Of a DNA stretch of 64,000 nucleotides, positions 50,130 through 59,837 are shown piece after piece. Source of the stretch: Mastigias papua (Eukaryota; Cnidaria; Scyphozoa; Rhizostomeae; Mastigiidae). The stretch spans positions 8,614,407 to 8,678,406 of the forward strand of contig OZ025274.1 in the NCBI GenBank assembly GCA_964019165.1. Direction: 5' to 3'. The notes under the pieces were generated by a model. That model made no database searches. It was given only the letters and a program-made list of their open reading frames with translations, and had not been told where the DNA came from. Every line of letters starts with the position of its first letter. The stretch's first letter is position 1. The position numbers and the translations under genes were made by a program.

Positions 50130-50292
50130 GCTTCAATAGAGATATAAGATTGCCTAGTCCGATGGATCAGGACCATGCTGCTGCTCTTCAGCAGTTAATA
50201 CGATCTGAGACACACATAAGTCCTTATGAAAAGTTATTTGAAGTTTGCATCTTCTACTATCTTGGCATTGCTTCTGCTATCCTGAAAGATAG
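50130..50292 (+). CDS. MVK: Mevalonate kinase, internal exon (equivalent of human exon 4)
   Basis: Enters in phase 1 after the acceptor at 50128-50129 and ends AAAGATAG before donor GTATGA at 50293. The peptide FNRDIRLPSPMDQDHAAALQ and EKLFEVCIFYYLGIASAIL aligns with the human segment SEQVEKLKEVAG to ERLAVLAFLYLYLSI. Both phases (1 in, 2 out) equal those of human exon 4 (c.227-371). The segment is helical and lies between the N-terminal strand and the ATP-binding loop. The preceding human exon 3 equivalent (about 148 bp, phase 0 to 1) should lie between 10154 and 50128 but was not found. Confidence 0.85.
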
Positions 50293-51065: not shown

Positions 51066-51949
51066 TGTACGTGATGATATAGTTTTCAGGGATTACTTAC
51101 TACTAGATAGTAGGACCATTCCTATTGTGTATACTTGATCTCTGGAGCCCCTACTATCACCTCCCGTCCCAAATACTGTTATTGTTCGAAACCCGGGTTG
51201 ATGATTTATATTTTATAACATGCCTCCTATACATGGCAGTATTCTTTTTTTTATGAAGTAAGACTATGGAGTTTTCTGAGGTATTAGACTTCTATACAAC
51301 CTAATTTAATGGCTAAATAAGGCTAATATACCAGTTAACAAAGGATTACTAGATGCGACCATATTACATGTTTATAGTTCAGACATAATTGTGTAACCCT
51401 TTGGGCAAGATTTACGATCACCCCACAGATCATAGTAGTAGTCATACCTGTCATTTGATCGACTATACAGTATATGTTATACACTGTTATAATTATACCA
51501 CTAGATTTTACAAGACTCTCTAAATTAGAATTGAAGTATGCAGGAGACAATACATGACGTTGTTCATTAATGCCTCACTGTAAAGAACATGTTGAAGGAT
51601 TATGTGCTTATTTCATATACAGTAGACTAGCTTAGTACCGATAGCCCGCTAAACGCGTGCTCCCCGTACTCAGGTCAAAAGGTGCAGATTAGCCTTGGAA
51701 AGACTAACGCAGTGCCCCCATGAAAGTTGCATGGTCTGCATTTTCGATGAGCAACTATCAAAAAAGGTCGCATAGGATTACGAGAAGGTGACGTCATGGA
51801 CCTCTGTGATGGAGCACGTGACCTTCAGCAGTGCATTGTGCAAATGGAAGAAAATTGCGAGAAAAAATTGTGCAAAAAATGCTCGAATACCTGCGCTAGG
51901 CTACGGGGCTTCTTGACTTTCATCCTTTTCCTGTACAGCCCCGTAGCCT
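51066..51949 (-). repeat. Second, truncated gypsy LTR with half a foldback MITE
   Basis: 51066-51619 matches the LTR at 40859-41423 along its length (for example TATGTTATACACTGTTA and GAATTGAAGTATGCAGGAGAC). The foldback MITE begins at the identical LTR position (TTTCATATACAGTAGACTAGC) and runs through its left arm, loop and 14 bp of the right arm, where it is joined to LINE sequence at 51949/51950. The missing part is the LTR start and most of the right arm. Confidence 0.75.
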
Positions 51950-54254
51950 CTGATCGTTCCTGGCCATACTGAACTATCGCTTTGCGATCGAATAGATAAT
52001 CAGTAAACCACTCTAGCTCCCGATCATGTATGCCATATTTTGGCAGTTTGCTCAGAAGTGTTGAGTGGCTAATAGTATCGAAAGCTTTCTTTAGGTCTAT
52101 AAAGCACGCACCAACTAATCTCCCTTTGTCGACATTTGACCGTATTTCATCTAGGAAGAGAGTCACTGCCTGCTCTGTAGACATGCCTCCACGAAAGCCG
52201 AATTGATATTTGTATATTAAGTTTTTTTCTTCAAGAAATGTCATCAACTGCTTGTGGATAACTTTTTCAGCAATTTTTGTCACTATTGGTAGAATCGATA
52301 TTGGCCTGTAGTTTTGGAATTGAGATCTAGAACCAGATTTGAAGTCTGGTATGATACGAGCTGATTTCCAGTCTGCTGGAATAACCCCGCTCTTAATGGA
52401 CAGGTTGATAATATATGTTAGAGGCTCTTTAATAGCATCCTTGAAGAATGATACACGCAGATTATCACATCCAGTCGATGTTTTCTGTTTCAACTTTTTA
52501 ATTATGCTGCAGATTTCCACTGATGTTGTCTCTTTGAGGTGAAATGTTTTGTAGGTTTTAGTGACTATATCACTGGATATACGGAATGCAAAATTGATCA
52601 AAGGCATAGCTTGAGATTTAATGTGGTTGACAGTAGTCGAAAAAAAAGATCGAAATCCATGAGCAATTTGTTTCATACCCGTACACTTCTCTCCATTACT
52701 ATCAAAGGATTGGCACGGAGGATTTTCCTCCCCTGATGTAGCATAAATCCTTTTTAGGGTTTTCCAGAATTTCTCTGGATCATCTGATCTTTCTTTAAGT
52801 AGTTCCTTGTTGTAATTATTTCTTGCCTTATGGAGTGTGATATTTACCTTGTTACGTTTATCTTGGTAAGCTCTCCTATCACAAACTAGATGGCTCTTTT
52901 GATATTTTCTATACAGCCTGTCACGATCATTCATGAGGGCTTTTATTTGAGATGTAAGCCATGGAGCCGGTTTAGATTTCACTCTTTTATTAATTATCGG
53001 AGCATGGGTGTTAAATATTGTGGAAGCAATTTTATGAAAAGTCTTCCAGGCAATGTTTACGTCGTTTGTACTATATACTTCAAACCAATTCGCATTTAAA
53101 AGATCAAGGTTCAGATGGTGAGGGTTATATTTGTTATAGTCACGGCAACGGATTTCTTTCGGTTTAAATTTTGTATGGTTTGTTTTACGTACACAGCCAA
53201 CAAAATCATGGTCACTGAAGCCCGATGGAAAAAACTTTGCGAATCGAATATTTTTGCAATTGTTTGATGCAATGATATCAATTAAAGTTCTAGTTGTCTC
53301 GCATGTTCTTGTAGCCTCCTTTATCAATTGTGTCATATCCATGAGAGCAAGGATTTCTTTAAAGTATCTTTTGTCCTCTTTCGCAAGGTAGTTAACATTT
53401 ACATCACCCATGATGATTATTTCTTTGTGTTCTGCTGTTGCCATGGTAAGCATGTCTTTCATACGGGCATTGAAGTTATGTGGGAGATAACGTGAACTGG
53501 ATGTGGGTCGGTACAGGCAGCAAACAAGGAAATTTTTAGCGAACTTACAAGTAATCTCGATCCAAATACTTTCGATATCAGATAACTCCAGATCATTTGG
53601 TCTAATAAAGGATATGTTATTTGAAAGATACATGCCAACTCCCCCGCCTTTACCAGTAGGCCGACTCCGACTTAAAAATGAGAAACCGGGTATCTGAAAT
53701 AAGACTTCTGCCTCTTCTTCCTCAAGACCACATGTTATGTGAGTTTCTATGATACCGAAAATATCAATCTCTGGGTAAACGCTCAGAAAACTCGAGATAT
53801 GAATTAAATTACTTTGAAGGCCTCTAACATTCCCATGGATAATCTTTGATCCGCATATCTTGACAAAATCTTTCATATTAAGTGGTCCCGGACAAGGATG
53901 GATATCCCCGCAAAGTAGTAGCAAGATTAGGCCCATCGATCGAACATGAAACGAGTATTGCTTACGTCTGTTGTTTACCCATAGACTTGTCATGATAAAA
54001 CTTTCTCTGCCAACAACAAGTTCTTCTCCAATAGCACTAAGTCCAACTGGATCACTTGAGATAAAATAACATCTTTTATTCGAGAAAGATAGCAAAAATA
54101 TTACGAAAATTTGCAGTATGTCCGACCGCATGAGAGCCATCTTAAAAAATATTTTTAGTATCACCCTAGTTGGTTCTTTAATTATCTTATACTCCTTTCG
54201 CCACAAGTTAACAACTTCATTCTTCTTTTCGGTAATTTTCGCTTCTCTCTTCAT
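51950..54254 (-). pseudogene. LINE ORF2 with degenerate 2A-like motif, 3'-truncated RT
   Basis: Minus-strand frame from ATG at 54254, open through the LINE and 40 codons into the MITE (stop at 51825). N-terminal 110 residues contain hydrophobic segments (LQIFVIFLLSFS, MGLILLLLCG). Residues 116-124 read GDIHPCPGP (53883-53909). The AP endonuclease follows: IIHGNVRGLQSN, GIIETHITCG, GKGGGVGMYLS, CCLYRPTSSS, IIMGDVNVNY, GFSDHDFVGCV. The RT begins SGVIPADWKSARIIPDFK, QNYRPISILPIV and FIDLKKAFDTISHSTLL (motif A), then stops at 51950, before motifs B and C. The reading frame is otherwise intact. Confidence 0.82.
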
Positions 54255-54664
54255 CGCATTTCAATCTTTGAGAACCCTTATGATACACTTTTATGGCCAC
54301 ATGCAGCCGCTTATGACCGTTTTTCCATTCCTACAGTCAAGTTCACGATTGCGAGGCTACGTCTTTAATACTATGTTAAGCGCAAACTACTGCTCGTAAT
54401 TCTTCTGCGTTTCTGTTATATAGAAGCCAGAGCCTCATATTTTTATGAATATGACTTACAGTTGCACTCGTATGTACAAAAGTACCGTTTGTGCGCACCT
54501 TCAAGAGATAAGCCCAATAAATTTACACTGTGACGTCAGCATGACGTCAAAGGGTAAAGATACGTAAAAACTGTTGTCACTATCGTAATCAGCGCCCCTG
54601 AAAACCGTATGATCACCCATGATTGCAGCCAATATCTTCTATCTTTCAAATTTAATATACCAGA
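54255..54664. other. LINE 5' leader and spacer
   Basis: Probably contains the 5' UTR of the minus-strand LINE up to about 54400. TGACGTCAGCATGACGTCA, a doubled CRE-like site, lies at 54531-54549. No gene. Confidence 0.35.
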
Positions 54665-55342: not shown

Positions 55343-55600
55343 TCATCTGAATTTTGTGTAGATTTGTTCCTGTGATCCAGATGCAGTGTAAGGCTCACGA
55401 GTGTCATAATTCAGTCTTTGCTGTTGAGCACCAGATAATTGATGGTATATTTGTTCATTTTGGTAAAACAAGTTCTGATGAATAGGCTGTTGTCTTTGAC
55501 CCTGATGCAGTATAGCCTGGGAAAGGACTTCCACTGAGCGACATATTCCATTTGCTAAATATCCGTCATTGTATATATTATTATATTTCTTCATCAAAAT
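55343..55600 (-). other. Gln-rich reading frame overlapping the end of the ATPase gene, uncertain
   Basis: Minus-strand codons KKYNNIYNDGYLANGICRSV to QEQIYTKFR and a stop at 55343-55345. It overlaps the last codons of the ATPase in another frame (start candidate ATG near 55600, or an upstream one at 55687). It is rich in Gln and Tyr (HQGQRQQPIHQNLFYQNEQI). Base composition changes to host-like within it, so it may mark the edge of the inserted DNA rather than be a gene. No homolog recognised. Confidence 0.25.
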
Positions 55601-56231
55601 GTTTATAACATTTATCATTGTTTTTATTAATAAAAATAAGATCGTGTTTGTGACCCTCACCGTGTAAATTTTTGAATGCATTTTCATCTATGTAATTTTC
55701 GCGTAATACCATTCGCATATGTTTTTTTGTTTTGGGCTCATAGATAATCATATAACATGAATTTAATCTTATAACTTGATCTATATCTGTATAATGTTGC
55801 GCTAAAAATATACAAAAAATATTTTTCTGTCTACCAAAAATGTAATGATCTGATATTCTTTTTAATACATTTTTTGACATTCCCATTAAATCATCAAATG
55901 TAACTAATTTTTTAGCATCATTGTCTTTATAACCATTGGTATATGGAATATTATTAGGATCATTTTCTAACACTATAAAATCATACCCAATTTTTGATTT
56001 TATTTTATCAGAAATTGATTTTAAATACTGTATTTTGTCTTGTAAAATATTCCTACCATAATAATACGCTATGTCAGGTTTGTTAAAAAACTTAGTGCTT
56101 AAAATCATATACATTACTAGGTTAGTTTTACCCCTTGACGAATTGCCGACTACAATCATACGAAACGGCCATTTTAACACATAACCATCATCATCATCTT
56201 GGTTTTTAACGTCTAAATTAGGAATCTTCAT
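55581..56231 (-). CDS. A32-like (FtsK/HerA-type) DNA-packaging ATPase of virus or virus-like element
   Basis: A 216-codon intact frame, AT-rich in codon choice. Residues 29-36 are the P-loop GNSSRGKT; residues 109-114 (LVTFDD) are the Walker B; IFLAQHY with Gln145 is the sensor-like motif after GRQKN. This layout (P-loop near residue 30, DD Walker B about 80 residues on, then a Gln motif) is that of the A32-like packaging ATPases of nucleocytoplasmic large DNA viruses, virophages and Polinton-like elements. They pump the genome into capsids. The ATG at 56231 directly follows ATATATAAA, a motif shared with the neighbouring gene. I saw no capsid or polymerase gene nearby. Whether the source is a virus, virophage or Polinton-like element is open. 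Confidence 0.68.
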   Translation of the reverse strand: MKIPNLDVKNQDDDDGYVLKWPFRMIVVGNSSRGKTNLVMYMILSTKFFNKPDIAYYYGRNILQDKIQYLKSISDKIKSKIGYDFIVLENDPNNIPYTNGYKDNDAKKLVTFDDLMGMSKNVLKRISDHYIFGRQKNIFCIFLAQHYTDIDQVIRLNSCYMIIYEPKTKKHMRMVLRENYIDENAFKNLHGEGHKHDLIFINKNNDKCYKHFDEEI

Positions 56232-56251
56232 TTTATATATTTATAGTTATA
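56232..56251 (-). promoter_or_regulatory. AT-rich promoter-like motif before the ATPase
   Basis: The minus strand reads CTATAAATATATAAAATGA into the start codon. It matches the sequence before the ankyrin-type gene at 17 of 19 positions, with 13 nt (ATATATAAAATGA) identical. Placement immediately at the ATG suggests a compact, viral-style promoter. Confidence 0.5.
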
Positions 56252-56602
56252 TTAATTTTCAATGAAATACTTTATACAATCTATATTACCGTATTTCTCT
56301 GCTTCTTTGTAAACACTATCATTCCATGGACAACCGTTTTCATGAGCATATTTTAAACATTTTAATTGACCATTTCGCGTTGTAATTACACAAGTTAATT
56401 CATTCCATGGGCATCCACTCTCATGAGCATATTTTCAACATTCTAAATGGCCATTCTCAACTGCATTTGCTCAAGTGTCATCATCCCATAAACAGTAGTT
56501 TTCATGAGCATATTTTAAACATTCTATATGACTATTTTTAATAGCAATAATTTTGTGTTGTAATAAAATGATATTTTTACATTCACAACATGAAAGCGTC
56601 AT
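56252..56602 (-). pseudogene. Ankyrin-type repeat protein of giant-virus style, broken by two stops
   Basis: A 116-codon minus-strand frame with TGA stops at codons 44 (56471-56473) and 56 (56435-56437). At least three repeat units of about 28 residues are seen, each with the pattern G/S-x-(L/I)-x-C-(L)-K-Y-A-H-E and then G/Y-C-(P/L)-W (for example HIECLKYAHENYCLWD and QLKCLKYAHENGCPWN). Such ankyrin-like repeats are abundant in nucleocytoplasmic large DNA viruses. The gene lies 20 bp upstream of the ATPase in the same orientation and shares its start-proximal motif. Many viral members are longer, so this is a short or decayed member. Confidence 0.62.
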
Positions 56603-56621
56603 TTTATATATATGTAGAATA
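56603..56621 (-). promoter_or_regulatory. AT-rich promoter-like motif before the ankyrin-type gene
   Basis: The minus strand reads CTACATATATATAAAATGA into the ATG; see the matching motif before the ATPase. Confidence 0.5.
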
Positions 56622-57475
56622 CTTTTTGTCTTCAACCCATAAAATGATAACAAACGATTTCAAAACACGAAATTACCATTCAACACACAGCAGCATAAAA
56701 ATATTTATCAAAACGGTGTGATATGATATAACCACATGTTGTAAATCGACGAATGACACCATATTTATTTGTTATTTAAGCGCCAATTTAATTTTGGAGA
56801 TTATTTATGGACCATGATTTATTGTCTGTAATGACATCACGCCACAGCTGTGGTGAAATCGCATTCCGCTTATAAGTCATATTTTATGTCCTATTATTAA
56901 GCAATACACAAGGAGCATAAACATATTTATCAATACGGTGTGATATGATATAGACAGTCGTTGTAAATTAAACAATGGTACCATATTTATTGGTTATTAA
57001 ACGCCAATTTAACTTTGGGAGATAAATTTATGGTCCATGATTTATAGTCGATAATTTATTGCCATGATTTATTGTTTATGATTTATGGTCCAATAATTAA
57101 TAGCGATAATTTACGACCCATCATTAACGGAGTGGTTGTAATTGCAAGGAATGTAATAATTATTTATGTGCTATTAATTATTTAACAATATTGACTTTTC
57201 CAATTTTTCAGTTCAGCTCTGCCCAAAAAATATTTACGATAAATATCATCATAAGTATTTCACAGTATTTGTCAATATTGGCAAATATTAATAATTGATT
57301 TTAATAGGAAATTTATGTTTCCCACTCCTAGCTTCTTCGATTTAATCATGTGAGATCATTAATTACAACACGCTTCCTTTGCAGCCATTATAAACGACGT
57401 GTTTTCTAAATAACCATTTTATGGTCCATAATGTATGGTCATAATGTCTGACCATTATTAACGGAGTGGTTATTA
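56622..57475. repeat. AT-rich field with a 225-bp period direct repeat and ATGATTTATNG units
   Basis: About 130 bp starting AGCATAAAAATATTTATCA (56691) recurs at 56915, including GGTGTGATATGATATA and CGCCAATTTAA. Between 57029 and 57110, short units such as CATGATTTATTG and TTTATGGTCCA repeat. CATTAACGGAGTGGTT recurs at 57123 and 57452. No ORF. The field is continuous with the virus-like genes in composition. Confidence 0.65.
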
Positions 57476-58166
57476 TACCCAGTGAGACTTTTTAAATTTT
57501 TATACCCACTTTAATTCCCAATATTCATCCCAATATTTAGAATTATTTTCAAAATTCATTTCCAAACATTTTATATTAAAATTTTATACCACTCCTTGTA
57601 ATCCACTTCGTATATCAATTTTAAATTTCAGTTCTTATATTCCTCTTTAAAACTCCAATTCTCATATCCAATTTGAAATTCCATTTTTCCTATACTCTAT
57701 TAAAATTCATTTTCTTATATTCACATTATAGCCCATTTTTCTTATATCCACAAAAACCCCATTTTCCTTATATTATCTTTTAAAAACCCATTTTCATATA
57801 TTTATTTAAAATTCCATTTTTCCTATACTCATTTAAAATTCATTTTTCTTATATTCACATTAAAACCCATTTTTCTTATATCATCTAAAAATCCCATTTG
57901 TCTTATATTATTTTAAAAACCTATTTTCTTATATTCATTAAAAATTCCATTTTTCTTCTCCCATTTTCAAAACTCATTCTCTTATATCACACTAAAACAC
58001 CATCCTCACACACCACACAATTCATCACCATCACCCAATAACCCCACTCACATTCCCAATCCCATATTAAAATATTTTAAAACCATATTGTCATTTCCAA
58101 CCCTCTCTACCAACTTTTTTACCATTTTTGTGCCAACATTCCGTATATCATTATATATCTTATATA
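57476..58166. repeat. Degenerate minisatellite, about 25-30 bp units, strongly strand-asymmetric
   Basis: About 20 imperfect units around the core CCCATTTTTCTTATATTCA followed by TTAAAA, from 57480 to about 57990. It then grades into CACCATCAC-rich sequence to 58166. The + strand is very poor in G. There are no spacers of constant length, so it is not a CRISPR array. Non-coding. Confidence 0.75.
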
Positions 58167-59516
58167 CTGTCGTGGCCAGAAGTTTAAGACTGCGCTTTTG
58201 TCAACAACGTTTCTTGGCGTAAAGATATTGAACCCTATCGCTCTCCCTAGTTTATTCTCTTTGGATCGGTTCAGGTCAACTTTCCATGCAGATTCCGAAT
58301 TTCGATGTTATTGTTTGAAATTTTGCGCCATTTTGCTATGACGTCCCAATTAAATCTATAGAAATTCTCGGAGGTTTCAATGGTACTGCCGAGAAGGGGT
58401 ATGACCCGAAAGATGTTTTACTAGGCTGAATTTTACATCAATCTATGCACAATTCATTTCTTTGATTTGTTTGTTAAATATTCAAACTCTACGAAAAAAG
58501 CGGCAGCTGGGAAAAAGTTAGCGGAGAGTTGTTAGTATGTCACTCTGGCCATAGGTTTAAGACCACCCTTGGAAAAACGCACTTTTGTCGCCTCAAAAAC
58601 CAGTTATTGAATAGAAAATGAAACGTATTGCATTCATCGCCTCATCCCTTACTTCAGCCTTTTGTTACAATTTTCTGTTAACCATCTTTCCATATGCATT
58701 TCATCGCATAGAATTTCGCTGCCTTTTGCCTGTCTCAATCTTTACGAAAATGGGGAAGACAGCATCTCTCAGCCTAGCTCAAAGGGCACAAGCTATGTCT
58801 CTCCACCATGAAGGATACTCTGAACAAGCAATTAGTGAGAAGCTTAAGTTTATCTCGGAATAACAATGTGTGTTTTGCCTCAAACCAGAGCTTTGGTCTT
58901 AAACTTATGGCCAGAGCTGTGGACTGAAAGCCTACTGTCAACTTTTTTCCAGCGGCCGCCTTTTCCGTACAGTTTAAATATTTAACAAACAAATCAAAGA
59001 AATACCAGAAAATTGTAACAAAAGGCTGAAGTAAGGGATGAGGCGATGAATGCAATACGTTTCATTTTCTATTCAATAACTGGTTTTTGAGGCGACAAAA
59101 GTGCGTTTTTCCAAGGGTGGTCTTAAACCTATGGCCAGAGTGACATACTAACAACTCTCCGCTAACTTTTTCCCAGCTGCCGCTTTTTTCGTAGAGTTTG
59201 AATATTTAACAAACAAATCAAAGAAATGAATTGTGCATAGATTGATGTAAAATTCAGCCTAGTAAAACATCTTTCGGGTCATACCCCTTCTCGGCAGTAC
59301 CATTGAAACCTCCGAGAATTTCTATAGATTTAATTGGGACGTCATAGCAAAATGGCGCAAAATTTCAAACAATAACATCGAAATTCGGAATCTGTATGGA
59401 AAGTTGACCTGAAACGATCCAAGGAGAATAGAATAGGGAGAGCGATAGGGTTCAATATCTTTACGCCAAGAAACGTTGTTGACAAAAGCGCAGTCTTAAA
59501 CTTTTGGCCACGACGG
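58167..59516. mobile_element. Tc1/mariner-like foldback with 511-bp arms and a transposase scrap
   Basis: Ends C(T/C)GTCGTGGCCA flanked by TA at 58165-58166 and 59517-59518. Arms 58167-58677 and 59006-59516 are inverted copies of equal length with few differences. A second terminus-like motif, CTGGCCATAGGTTTAAGACC, lies inside each arm (about 58546 and its inverse near 59133), and a third inverse copy (GGTCTTAAACTTATGGCCAG) lies at 58894. The centre carries the first 37 codons of a Tc1-type transposase. Confidence 0.82.
58750..58863 (+). pseudogene. Tc1-type transposase N-terminus, truncated
   Basis: Encodes MGKTASLSLAQRAQAMSLHH and GYSEQAISEKLK, the first helix-turn-helix of a Tc1-like transposase, then a stop after 37 codons. 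The DDE domain is absent; only the DNA-binding start survives between the inverted arms. Confidence 0.65.
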
Positions 59517-59571: not shown

Positions 59572-59837
59572 CAATTCAGGTGTCATTATTGAAGTCACAT
59601 CTGAATTACCGTTTGGTAGTGGATTAGGCTCCTCAGCTTCATTGTCTGTTGCCGTTGCTTCTGCCTTTCTACTGTTATGCCAAGTAATTGAGCTGCAGTT
59701 TCAAAATACCGATGAAGGACTTACACAAACTGAATTATCTAAGAAAGATCTAGACGTGATTAATGCTTGGGCATTCGAAGGCGAGAAAATTTCACATGGA
59801 CTACCATCGGGAATTGATAACACCATTATTACCTACG
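59572..59837 (+). CDS. MVK: Mevalonate kinase, exon with the ATP-binding GHMP motif
   Basis: Starts after the acceptor TATCTTATTCTAG (59571) in phase 2, completing the codon split at 50292, and ends at donor GTAATG (59838) in phase 1. Encodes SGVIIEVTSELPFGSGLGSS, the GHMP kinase ATP-binding loop, then ASLSVAVASAFLLL, KKDLDVINAWAFEGEKISHG and LPSGIDNTIITYG with the catalytic Asp. It equals human exons 5 and 6 fused: the intron between them in human is absent, while the outer phases (2 and 1) are the same. All key residues are present. A Tc1-like element ends 55 bp before it. Confidence 0.93.

Follow-up and report, generated by a model that had tools for sequence, protein, structure and literature searches.

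The stretch of DNA analyzed here, called the window throughout (64,000 nucleotides of the scyphozoan Mastigias papua; GenBank assembly GCA_964019165.1, contig OZ025274.1, positions 8,614,407 to 8,678,406), contains a small island of foreign DNA that very likely sits in an intron of the host mevalonate kinase gene and that is almost certainly the relic of a Polinton/Maverick element, integrated at full length and later deprived of most of its sequence. The island had been singled out in an earlier note, made from the letters alone, as a sharply AT-rich block. This description is accurate, the GC content of 55556–58158 being 27.4% compared with 37.7% and 38.4% in the two flanking 5-kb stretches, and the borders needed correction by a few bases only, to a left break at 55556 and a right terminus at 58158. 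The features of the island and its surroundings are collected in Table 1.

The gene content reported in that note also holds up. The packaging ATPase frame has no internal stop in its 216 codons and retains all of the expected motifs (the P-loop GNSSRGKT, the Walker B motif VTFDD, and LAQHY). Its best Pfam match is Pox_A32 (32.7 bits, cut-off 22.8), so that the profile search proposed in the note assigns it to the viral packaging type, and the FtsK/A32-type ATPase expected of a Polinton is thus present in the window copy itself. A PHROG terminase family also matches (E = 1.3e-4); the match to FtsK_SpoIIIE (E = 0.024) lies below the cut-off, PDB sequences returned only a chance ribosomal match (E = 0.6), and the AlphaFold model of the protein is poor (predicted local distance difference test score, pLDDT, of 46.6). 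Ending 20 bp from the start of the ATPase, upstream of it and in the same orientation, is the broken ankyrin-type gene, whose two pieces (56252–56434 and 56471–56659, minus strand) form one reading frame with three stops in 136 codons, one of them the natural end. The first piece has Ank_4 as its best, sub-threshold Pfam match (E = 0.0025) and the second matches nothing in Pfam; an ankyrin gene from a related copy elsewhere in the genome aligns across both pieces (E = 5.5e-34). The repeat field beyond it is likewise real, with tandem units of 27, 53, 80 and 133 bp at 57632–58003.

Table 1. Features of the island and of the surrounding intron (window coordinates; TIR, terminal inverted repeat; TSD, target-site duplication)
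Feature	Position	Strand	Basis
Truncated Polinton/Maverick, right-hand end only	55556..58158	-	inner break 55556, terminus 58158; sibling alignments
A32-like packaging ATPase of the FtsK/HerA type, stop-free over 216 aa	55584..56231	-	PF04665 E = 6.8e-8
Remains of an ankyrin-repeat gene: three 81-bp units, in-frame stops at two internal points	56252..56659	-	repeat units, stops, sibling gene match
Non-coding end region, right TIR as judged from siblings	56660..58158		tandem repeats with units of 14 bp and of 27/53/80/133 bp
CTTATA, candidate right half of 6-bp TSD; left half lost with truncated end	58159..58164		adjoins terminus; 6-bp rule in 6/7 siblings tested
Fold-back Tc1/mariner-like element	58167..59516		arms ~516 nt, 98% complementary; TA on both sides
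Mevalonate kinase exon, downstream	59572..59837	+	PDB 2r3v E = 4.3e-18, 68.8 bits
Mevalonate kinase exon, upstream (likely)	50130..50292	+	AG/GT borders, compatible phase, alignment reaching in

The identity of the island is revealed by its relatives. A search of the same animal's genome (346.8 Mb in 172 contigs), with the island as query, gave 264 candidate places, of which 40 were scored: the window itself, 38 places with the ATPase part, and one with the non-coding end only. Related places besides the window thus number at least 39. Twenty of the 39 other places, here called siblings, were fetched with their flanks. All 20 have homology to a retroviral-type (rve) integrase and to a family B DNA polymerase (PolB), and 19 have the ankyrin gene; the window copy has neither integrase nor PolB, and searching the whole window for other Polinton genes gave two chance-level matches only (E = 0.25 and 0.29). 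Read from the end that they share with the window, siblings carry the ankyrin gene, the ATPase, a stretch with a DUF5679 zinc ribbon and a phospholipase A2 (PLA2)-like part, the integrase, and PolB. In locus L026 three of these domains lie in a single open frame (DUF5679, 2.1e-9; Phospholip_A2_4, 1.4e-8; rve, 1.7e-11; the rve match at L026:2437-3879), while the polymerase is best seen at L029:3-1874 (DNA_pol_B_2, E = 3.4e-20), with a PHROG DNA polymerase match at E = 1.1e-7; by analogy with known elements this polymerase would be protein-primed. A search with the ATPase for homologous proteins returned 38, of which five are letter-for-letter identical to fetched sibling loci; the other 33 may be further copies from the same or a near genome.

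Two siblings were followed further to the left (L029 continues L019, and L030 continues L022), which answers the suggestion in the earlier note that copies with capsid or polymerase genes be sought: PolB homology is present in every fetched sibling, and capsid-like genes are present in these two. The frames of L029 are 427, 262, 143, 433, 289, 183, 335 and more than 638 amino acids long, and L030 shows this series too, although in it some of the frames are broken. From their place, and from the plan usual for Polintons, we take the 262-residue protein to be the penton, the 433-residue protein the major capsid protein (MCP), the 183-residue protein an adenain-like protease, the 335-residue protein LamG-like, and the last fibre-like. 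Among these names outside support exists for the protease only, which matches the S273R protease of African swine fever virus in the PDB with a whole-sequence E of 0.004 (best stretch, independent E-value 0.12); it has no Pfam or PHROG match, and one NCBIfam match far below the cut-off is taken as chance. A candidate His-Asp-Cys pattern can be picked out by eye. The fibre-like frame has a sub-threshold Pfam match to Av_adeno_fibre, the avian adenovirus fibre (E = 0.0092); short repeats in the style of adenovirus fibres are visible by eye in this protein (L029:8087-10000 and L047:3-1199). Past it lies a 166-residue frame; a 190-residue frame and three more ankyrin genes, all on the opposite strand, are found there as well.

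This gene content bears directly on the reading in which an A32 ATPase and an ankyrin gene were inserted together from a poxvirus-like or amoeba-virus-like genome, leaving a piece of a giant virus (Nucleocytoviricota, here also nucleocytoplasmic large DNA viruses or NCLDV) as an endogenous element. Such an origin would account for Pox_A32 as the best Pfam match and for the ankyrin gene, ankyrin families being expanded in NCLDV according to the accessible text of PMC8715426; ankyrin arrays and an A32-like ATPase are indeed what the two groups have in common. But the siblings carry an rve integrase and DNA_pol_B_2, have TIRs and 6-bp TSDs of the transposon type with about 22 kb between their ends (measured in one), and, in Pfam scans of 16 of their frames, yielded no family restricted to NCLDV. 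One guess in that direction, a late transcription factor (VLTF3) gene at L031:840-1409, was rejected, its only match being DZR at E = 0.048. The gene that had been described as an ankyrin gene of giant-virus style is real; it is a gene of the Polinton family (19 of 20 siblings, and the second lineage described below) and no sign of a giant virus insertion. We therefore regard direct insertion from a giant virus as extremely improbable.

The ends of the element agree with assignment to the Polintons. One sibling, C19:13279951-13302180, is 22,230 bp long, with TIRs identical over 1,167 bp and CATGTT on both flanks. An exact 12-base terminus occurs in 10 of the 20 siblings; among seven of these tested, perfect 6-bp TSDs were found in six (CATGTT, ACCAAG, AACATG, TATATA, GACGTA and CATAAT), whereas the stretch fetched for the seventh did not include its far end. 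In six of the seven, the outer 549–650 bp of the TIRs are 99.8–100% identical. The window copy is one-ended, and the TIR role of its non-coding end region was accordingly measured in the siblings. Its right end reads CATTATATAT at 58158, followed by CTTATA. BLAST alignments of the window with L009 and L028 stop exactly at 58158, and all three sequences end in CATTATATAT; the alignment with L010, whose terminus differs by one base, runs five bases further. The same CTTAT (58159–58163) follows the terminus in L010, which is on a different contig, and this is either chance or target preference. The last bases of the block as first delimited, 58159–58166, are target-site DNA plus the TA of the adjacent Tc1-like insertion.

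Coincidence of the right edge with a terminus known from relatives also weakens the concern that the island was misjoined into the intron during assembly. The sharp change in composition is what a chimera might produce, but beyond the terminus come ordinary DNA and an exon, and the contig that contains the window is many megabases long; a chimera is highly improbable.

The left edge is of another kind. Several sibling alignments begin at window position 55556, and to the left of the equivalent point the sequence shared among siblings continues, placing 55556 in the interior of the element; the left end of the window copy is a truncation. This argues against a short non-autonomous derivative, in which a 2.6-kb unit of terminal region, ankyrin gene and ATPase would have been moved by the enzymes of the siblings. 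Retention of one complete terminus would suit such a unit, and deletion derivatives do exist: L028 (C20:14949500-14958000), in which integrase and PolB homology persist along with the non-coding end while ATPase and ankyrin homology are missing, is one (its end carries an expanded 25-bp tandem array). But nothing resembling a terminal repeat was seen at 55556, no second copy of the left break was seen, and all 19 of the fetched ATPase-bearing siblings (of 38) also have integrase and PolB homology. The chance of a mobile short unit is accordingly very small. Two frames of the left flank matched no Pfam family.

Several observations weigh against identification of the island as a Polinton relic. 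PolB had no match among phage records, and the MCP-, penton-, fibre- and LamG-like proteins found nothing convincing in Pfam, NCBIfam, PHROG or the PDB (the last searched for the MCP only). Scans of IMG/VR with the ATPase, the ATPase alignment and the MCP alignment returned no relative. The ten siblings with the exact 12-base terminus, from which the seven TSD-tested copies were drawn, do not include the nearest relatives of the window. The ten-base terminus occurs a single time on the plus strand of the window, and 49 of 2000 shuffled versions of the 1,489-bp end region contain it. Because many siblings have a second occurrence close downstream of the ATPase, the motif is weak evidence by itself, and more weight is given to the points at which the alignments end. 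Finally, the termini are ATATATAATG...CATTATATAT and not the AG...CT of vertebrate Mavericks; since the published motif describes vertebrate elements, it is not treated here as defining outside vertebrates.

Comparison with known systems nevertheless favors the Polintons/Mavericks (Polintoviricetes). Like them, the siblings have PolB, an rve integrase, an A32/FtsK-type ATPase, long TIRs and a 6-bp TSD. Candidates for further shared genes are the probable adenain-like protease and the 433- and 262-residue frames, which stand where the double jelly-roll MCP and the penton would be expected. Intact vertebrate Mavericks have TIRs, 6-bp TSDs and AG/CT end motifs (PMC8097293, accessible text), and in the accessible part of PMC3671162 a figure that compares virophages, polintons and related viruses marks a PLA2 domain of parvovirus type. 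The siblings differ in size, the one measured (22.2 kb) being slightly above the 15–20 kb given for Polintons in the available portion of PMC4028283, in the tandem repeats held within their TIRs, in their terminal bases, and in having ankyrin genes beside both ends. Adintoviruses, likened here by description only, are treated for the most part as another name for the Polintons of animal genomes, and the capsid genes of the original Maverick-Polinton group are almost all metazoan (both from the accessible text of PMC10120064). Virophages (Mavirus) and polinton-like viruses are similar in that virophages have an ATPase, protease, MCP and minor capsid protein, with integrase and PolB in some (PMC3671162, in the part available); they differ in that no IMG/VR contig matched the MCP-like protein or the ATPase. 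The earlier note was correct in recognizing a virus-like element and in naming Polintons among the candidates; its proposal of a kind not yet described does not stand, because the siblings, with PolB, integrase, TIRs and 6-bp TSDs, hold the main defining parts of a Polinton. What appeared to be an undescribed viral island is the fossil of a known element.

The history of the locus may be pictured as follows. A full-length element of about 22 kb would have integrated into the mevalonate kinase intron by means of its retroviral-type integrase, duplicating 6 bp of target as its siblings did; everything to the left of the ATPase, that is the integrase, PolB and capsid genes and the other TIR, all absent now, would later have been lost, presumably by deletion; and the fold-back Tc1-like element would then have inserted next to the right end. 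The island now consists of one terminal region, a decayed ankyrin gene, and an ATPase frame without partner genes in the window. Intact siblings would be copied by protein-primed PolB; the ATPase would package the linear DNA in a capsid, for whose maturation the adenain-like protease would serve, and the integrase would re-insert the DNA.

The uninterrupted ATPase frame raises the question of domestication, in which the host would have kept the ATPase as a gene of its own. Compared with nine open sibling ATPases (ten frames, including that of the window, passed a length filter of 205 amino acids), the window frame has ratios of nonsynonymous to synonymous change (dN/dS) of 0.09–0.12 at saturated dS values of 1.6–2.0; compared with L010, which has three stops in the same stretch, the ratio is 0.17 at a dS of 0.58. 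Both the low ratios (0.09–0.17) and the persistence of 216 stop-free codons where a relative has three stops would suit a gene retained by the host. But the low dN/dS among copies, with most dS values saturated, reflects a long history before insertion, during which selection acted while the lineage replicated, and in a simple simulation the probability that a frame of this length stays free of stops is 0.74, 0.22 and 0.10 when neutral change amounts to 1%, 5% and 8%, respectively; since survival is 0.22 even at 5% change, an intact frame says little. The adjoining ankyrin gene is broken as well. Domestication is thus very unlikely; most likely the frame is a fossil in which no stop has yet arisen, rather than a working gene.

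The wider family includes more than one lineage. A genome search with the capsid-like protein gave 204 candidates, and the 99 that were scored contributed 103 matches; among them, 20 (including the place of the query) are full-length, free of stops and 88–100% identical, and about 35 more are near full-length, free of stops and 33–40% identical, constituting a second, divergent set. This set was sampled through one element on contig C1, by two flanking stretches (L046, C1:21171500-21180500; L047, C1:21190500-21196500). Its MCP-like protein is 38% identical to that of the first lineage, and its plan is the same: a repeat-rich stretch, an ankyrin gene, ATPase (38%), zinc-ribbon/PLA2 (60%), integrase (61%) and PolB (34–56%), and, at the far end, the fibre end (64%), the 166- and 190-residue genes and a pair of ankyrin genes. 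Ankyrin genes thus lie beside both ends in two lineages. The 166- and 190-residue genes are 95% and 86% identical between lineages, compared with 38% for ATPase and MCP, a pattern which, in the one second-set element sampled, suggests the outcome that exchange of end modules would give.

These findings allow a broader proposal, which is offered tentatively and which we consider rather less probable than even: that they represent an unreported, recently expanding radiation of Polintons with ankyrin arrays inside both TIRs, in which lineages with 38%-identical capsid-like proteins swap end modules (the fibre end and two genes of no assigned function), the host-interaction genes forming an exchangeable cassette. 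In the window this variant trait is represented by one broken gene only. Ankyrin cargo may be a new trait of Polintons. No ankyrin gene in a Polinton is described in the accessible portions of PMC6431247, PMC8715426, PMC11464507, PMC2646287 and PMC12314368, and the word ankyrin is absent from the main text, as available, of PMC3671162, PMC11071308, PMC8097293 and PMC10120064; no literature joining adintoviruses with ankyrin was found, nor, among the papers listed, any Polinton with ankyrin genes, in a search that left subscription papers and Repbase outside its range.

The ankyrin-flanked ends and the possible exchange of modules merit follow-up. Ankyrin genes of poxviruses are thought to take part in host interaction; if those at both ends of these elements act likewise, they would connect Polintons to the sets of genes with which larger viruses interact with their hosts. 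The genome, assembled in large contigs, holds many Polintons that are probably recent, as judged from TIR identities of 99.8–100% in six copies and from identical ATPases in two (L019 and L020, on different contigs), and genomes of this kind are suited to asking whether Polintons make virions.

In the earlier note, mevalonate kinase exons had been placed on both sides of the island; the downstream one is secure from its match to PDB 2r3v, and the upstream one is likely, as judged from sequence features. By itself the upstream exon matched nothing in the PDB or Pfam. When the two were joined, the alignment to 2r3v extended 16 residues into it, with a score (67.0 bits, E = 1.5e-17) not raised above the 68.8 bits obtained before; because of these two results it is called only likely. 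Between the Polinton terminus and the downstream exon lies the Tc1-like element, whose helix-turn-helix matches are weak and below the cut-off (e.g., that of Sleeping Beauty, E = 0.07), and which also holds inner partial copies. The same intron contains, at 51825–54260 on the minus strand, an 811-residue endonuclease/reverse transcriptase frame of the long interspersed nuclear element (LINE) type (RVT_1, E = 2.2e-15).

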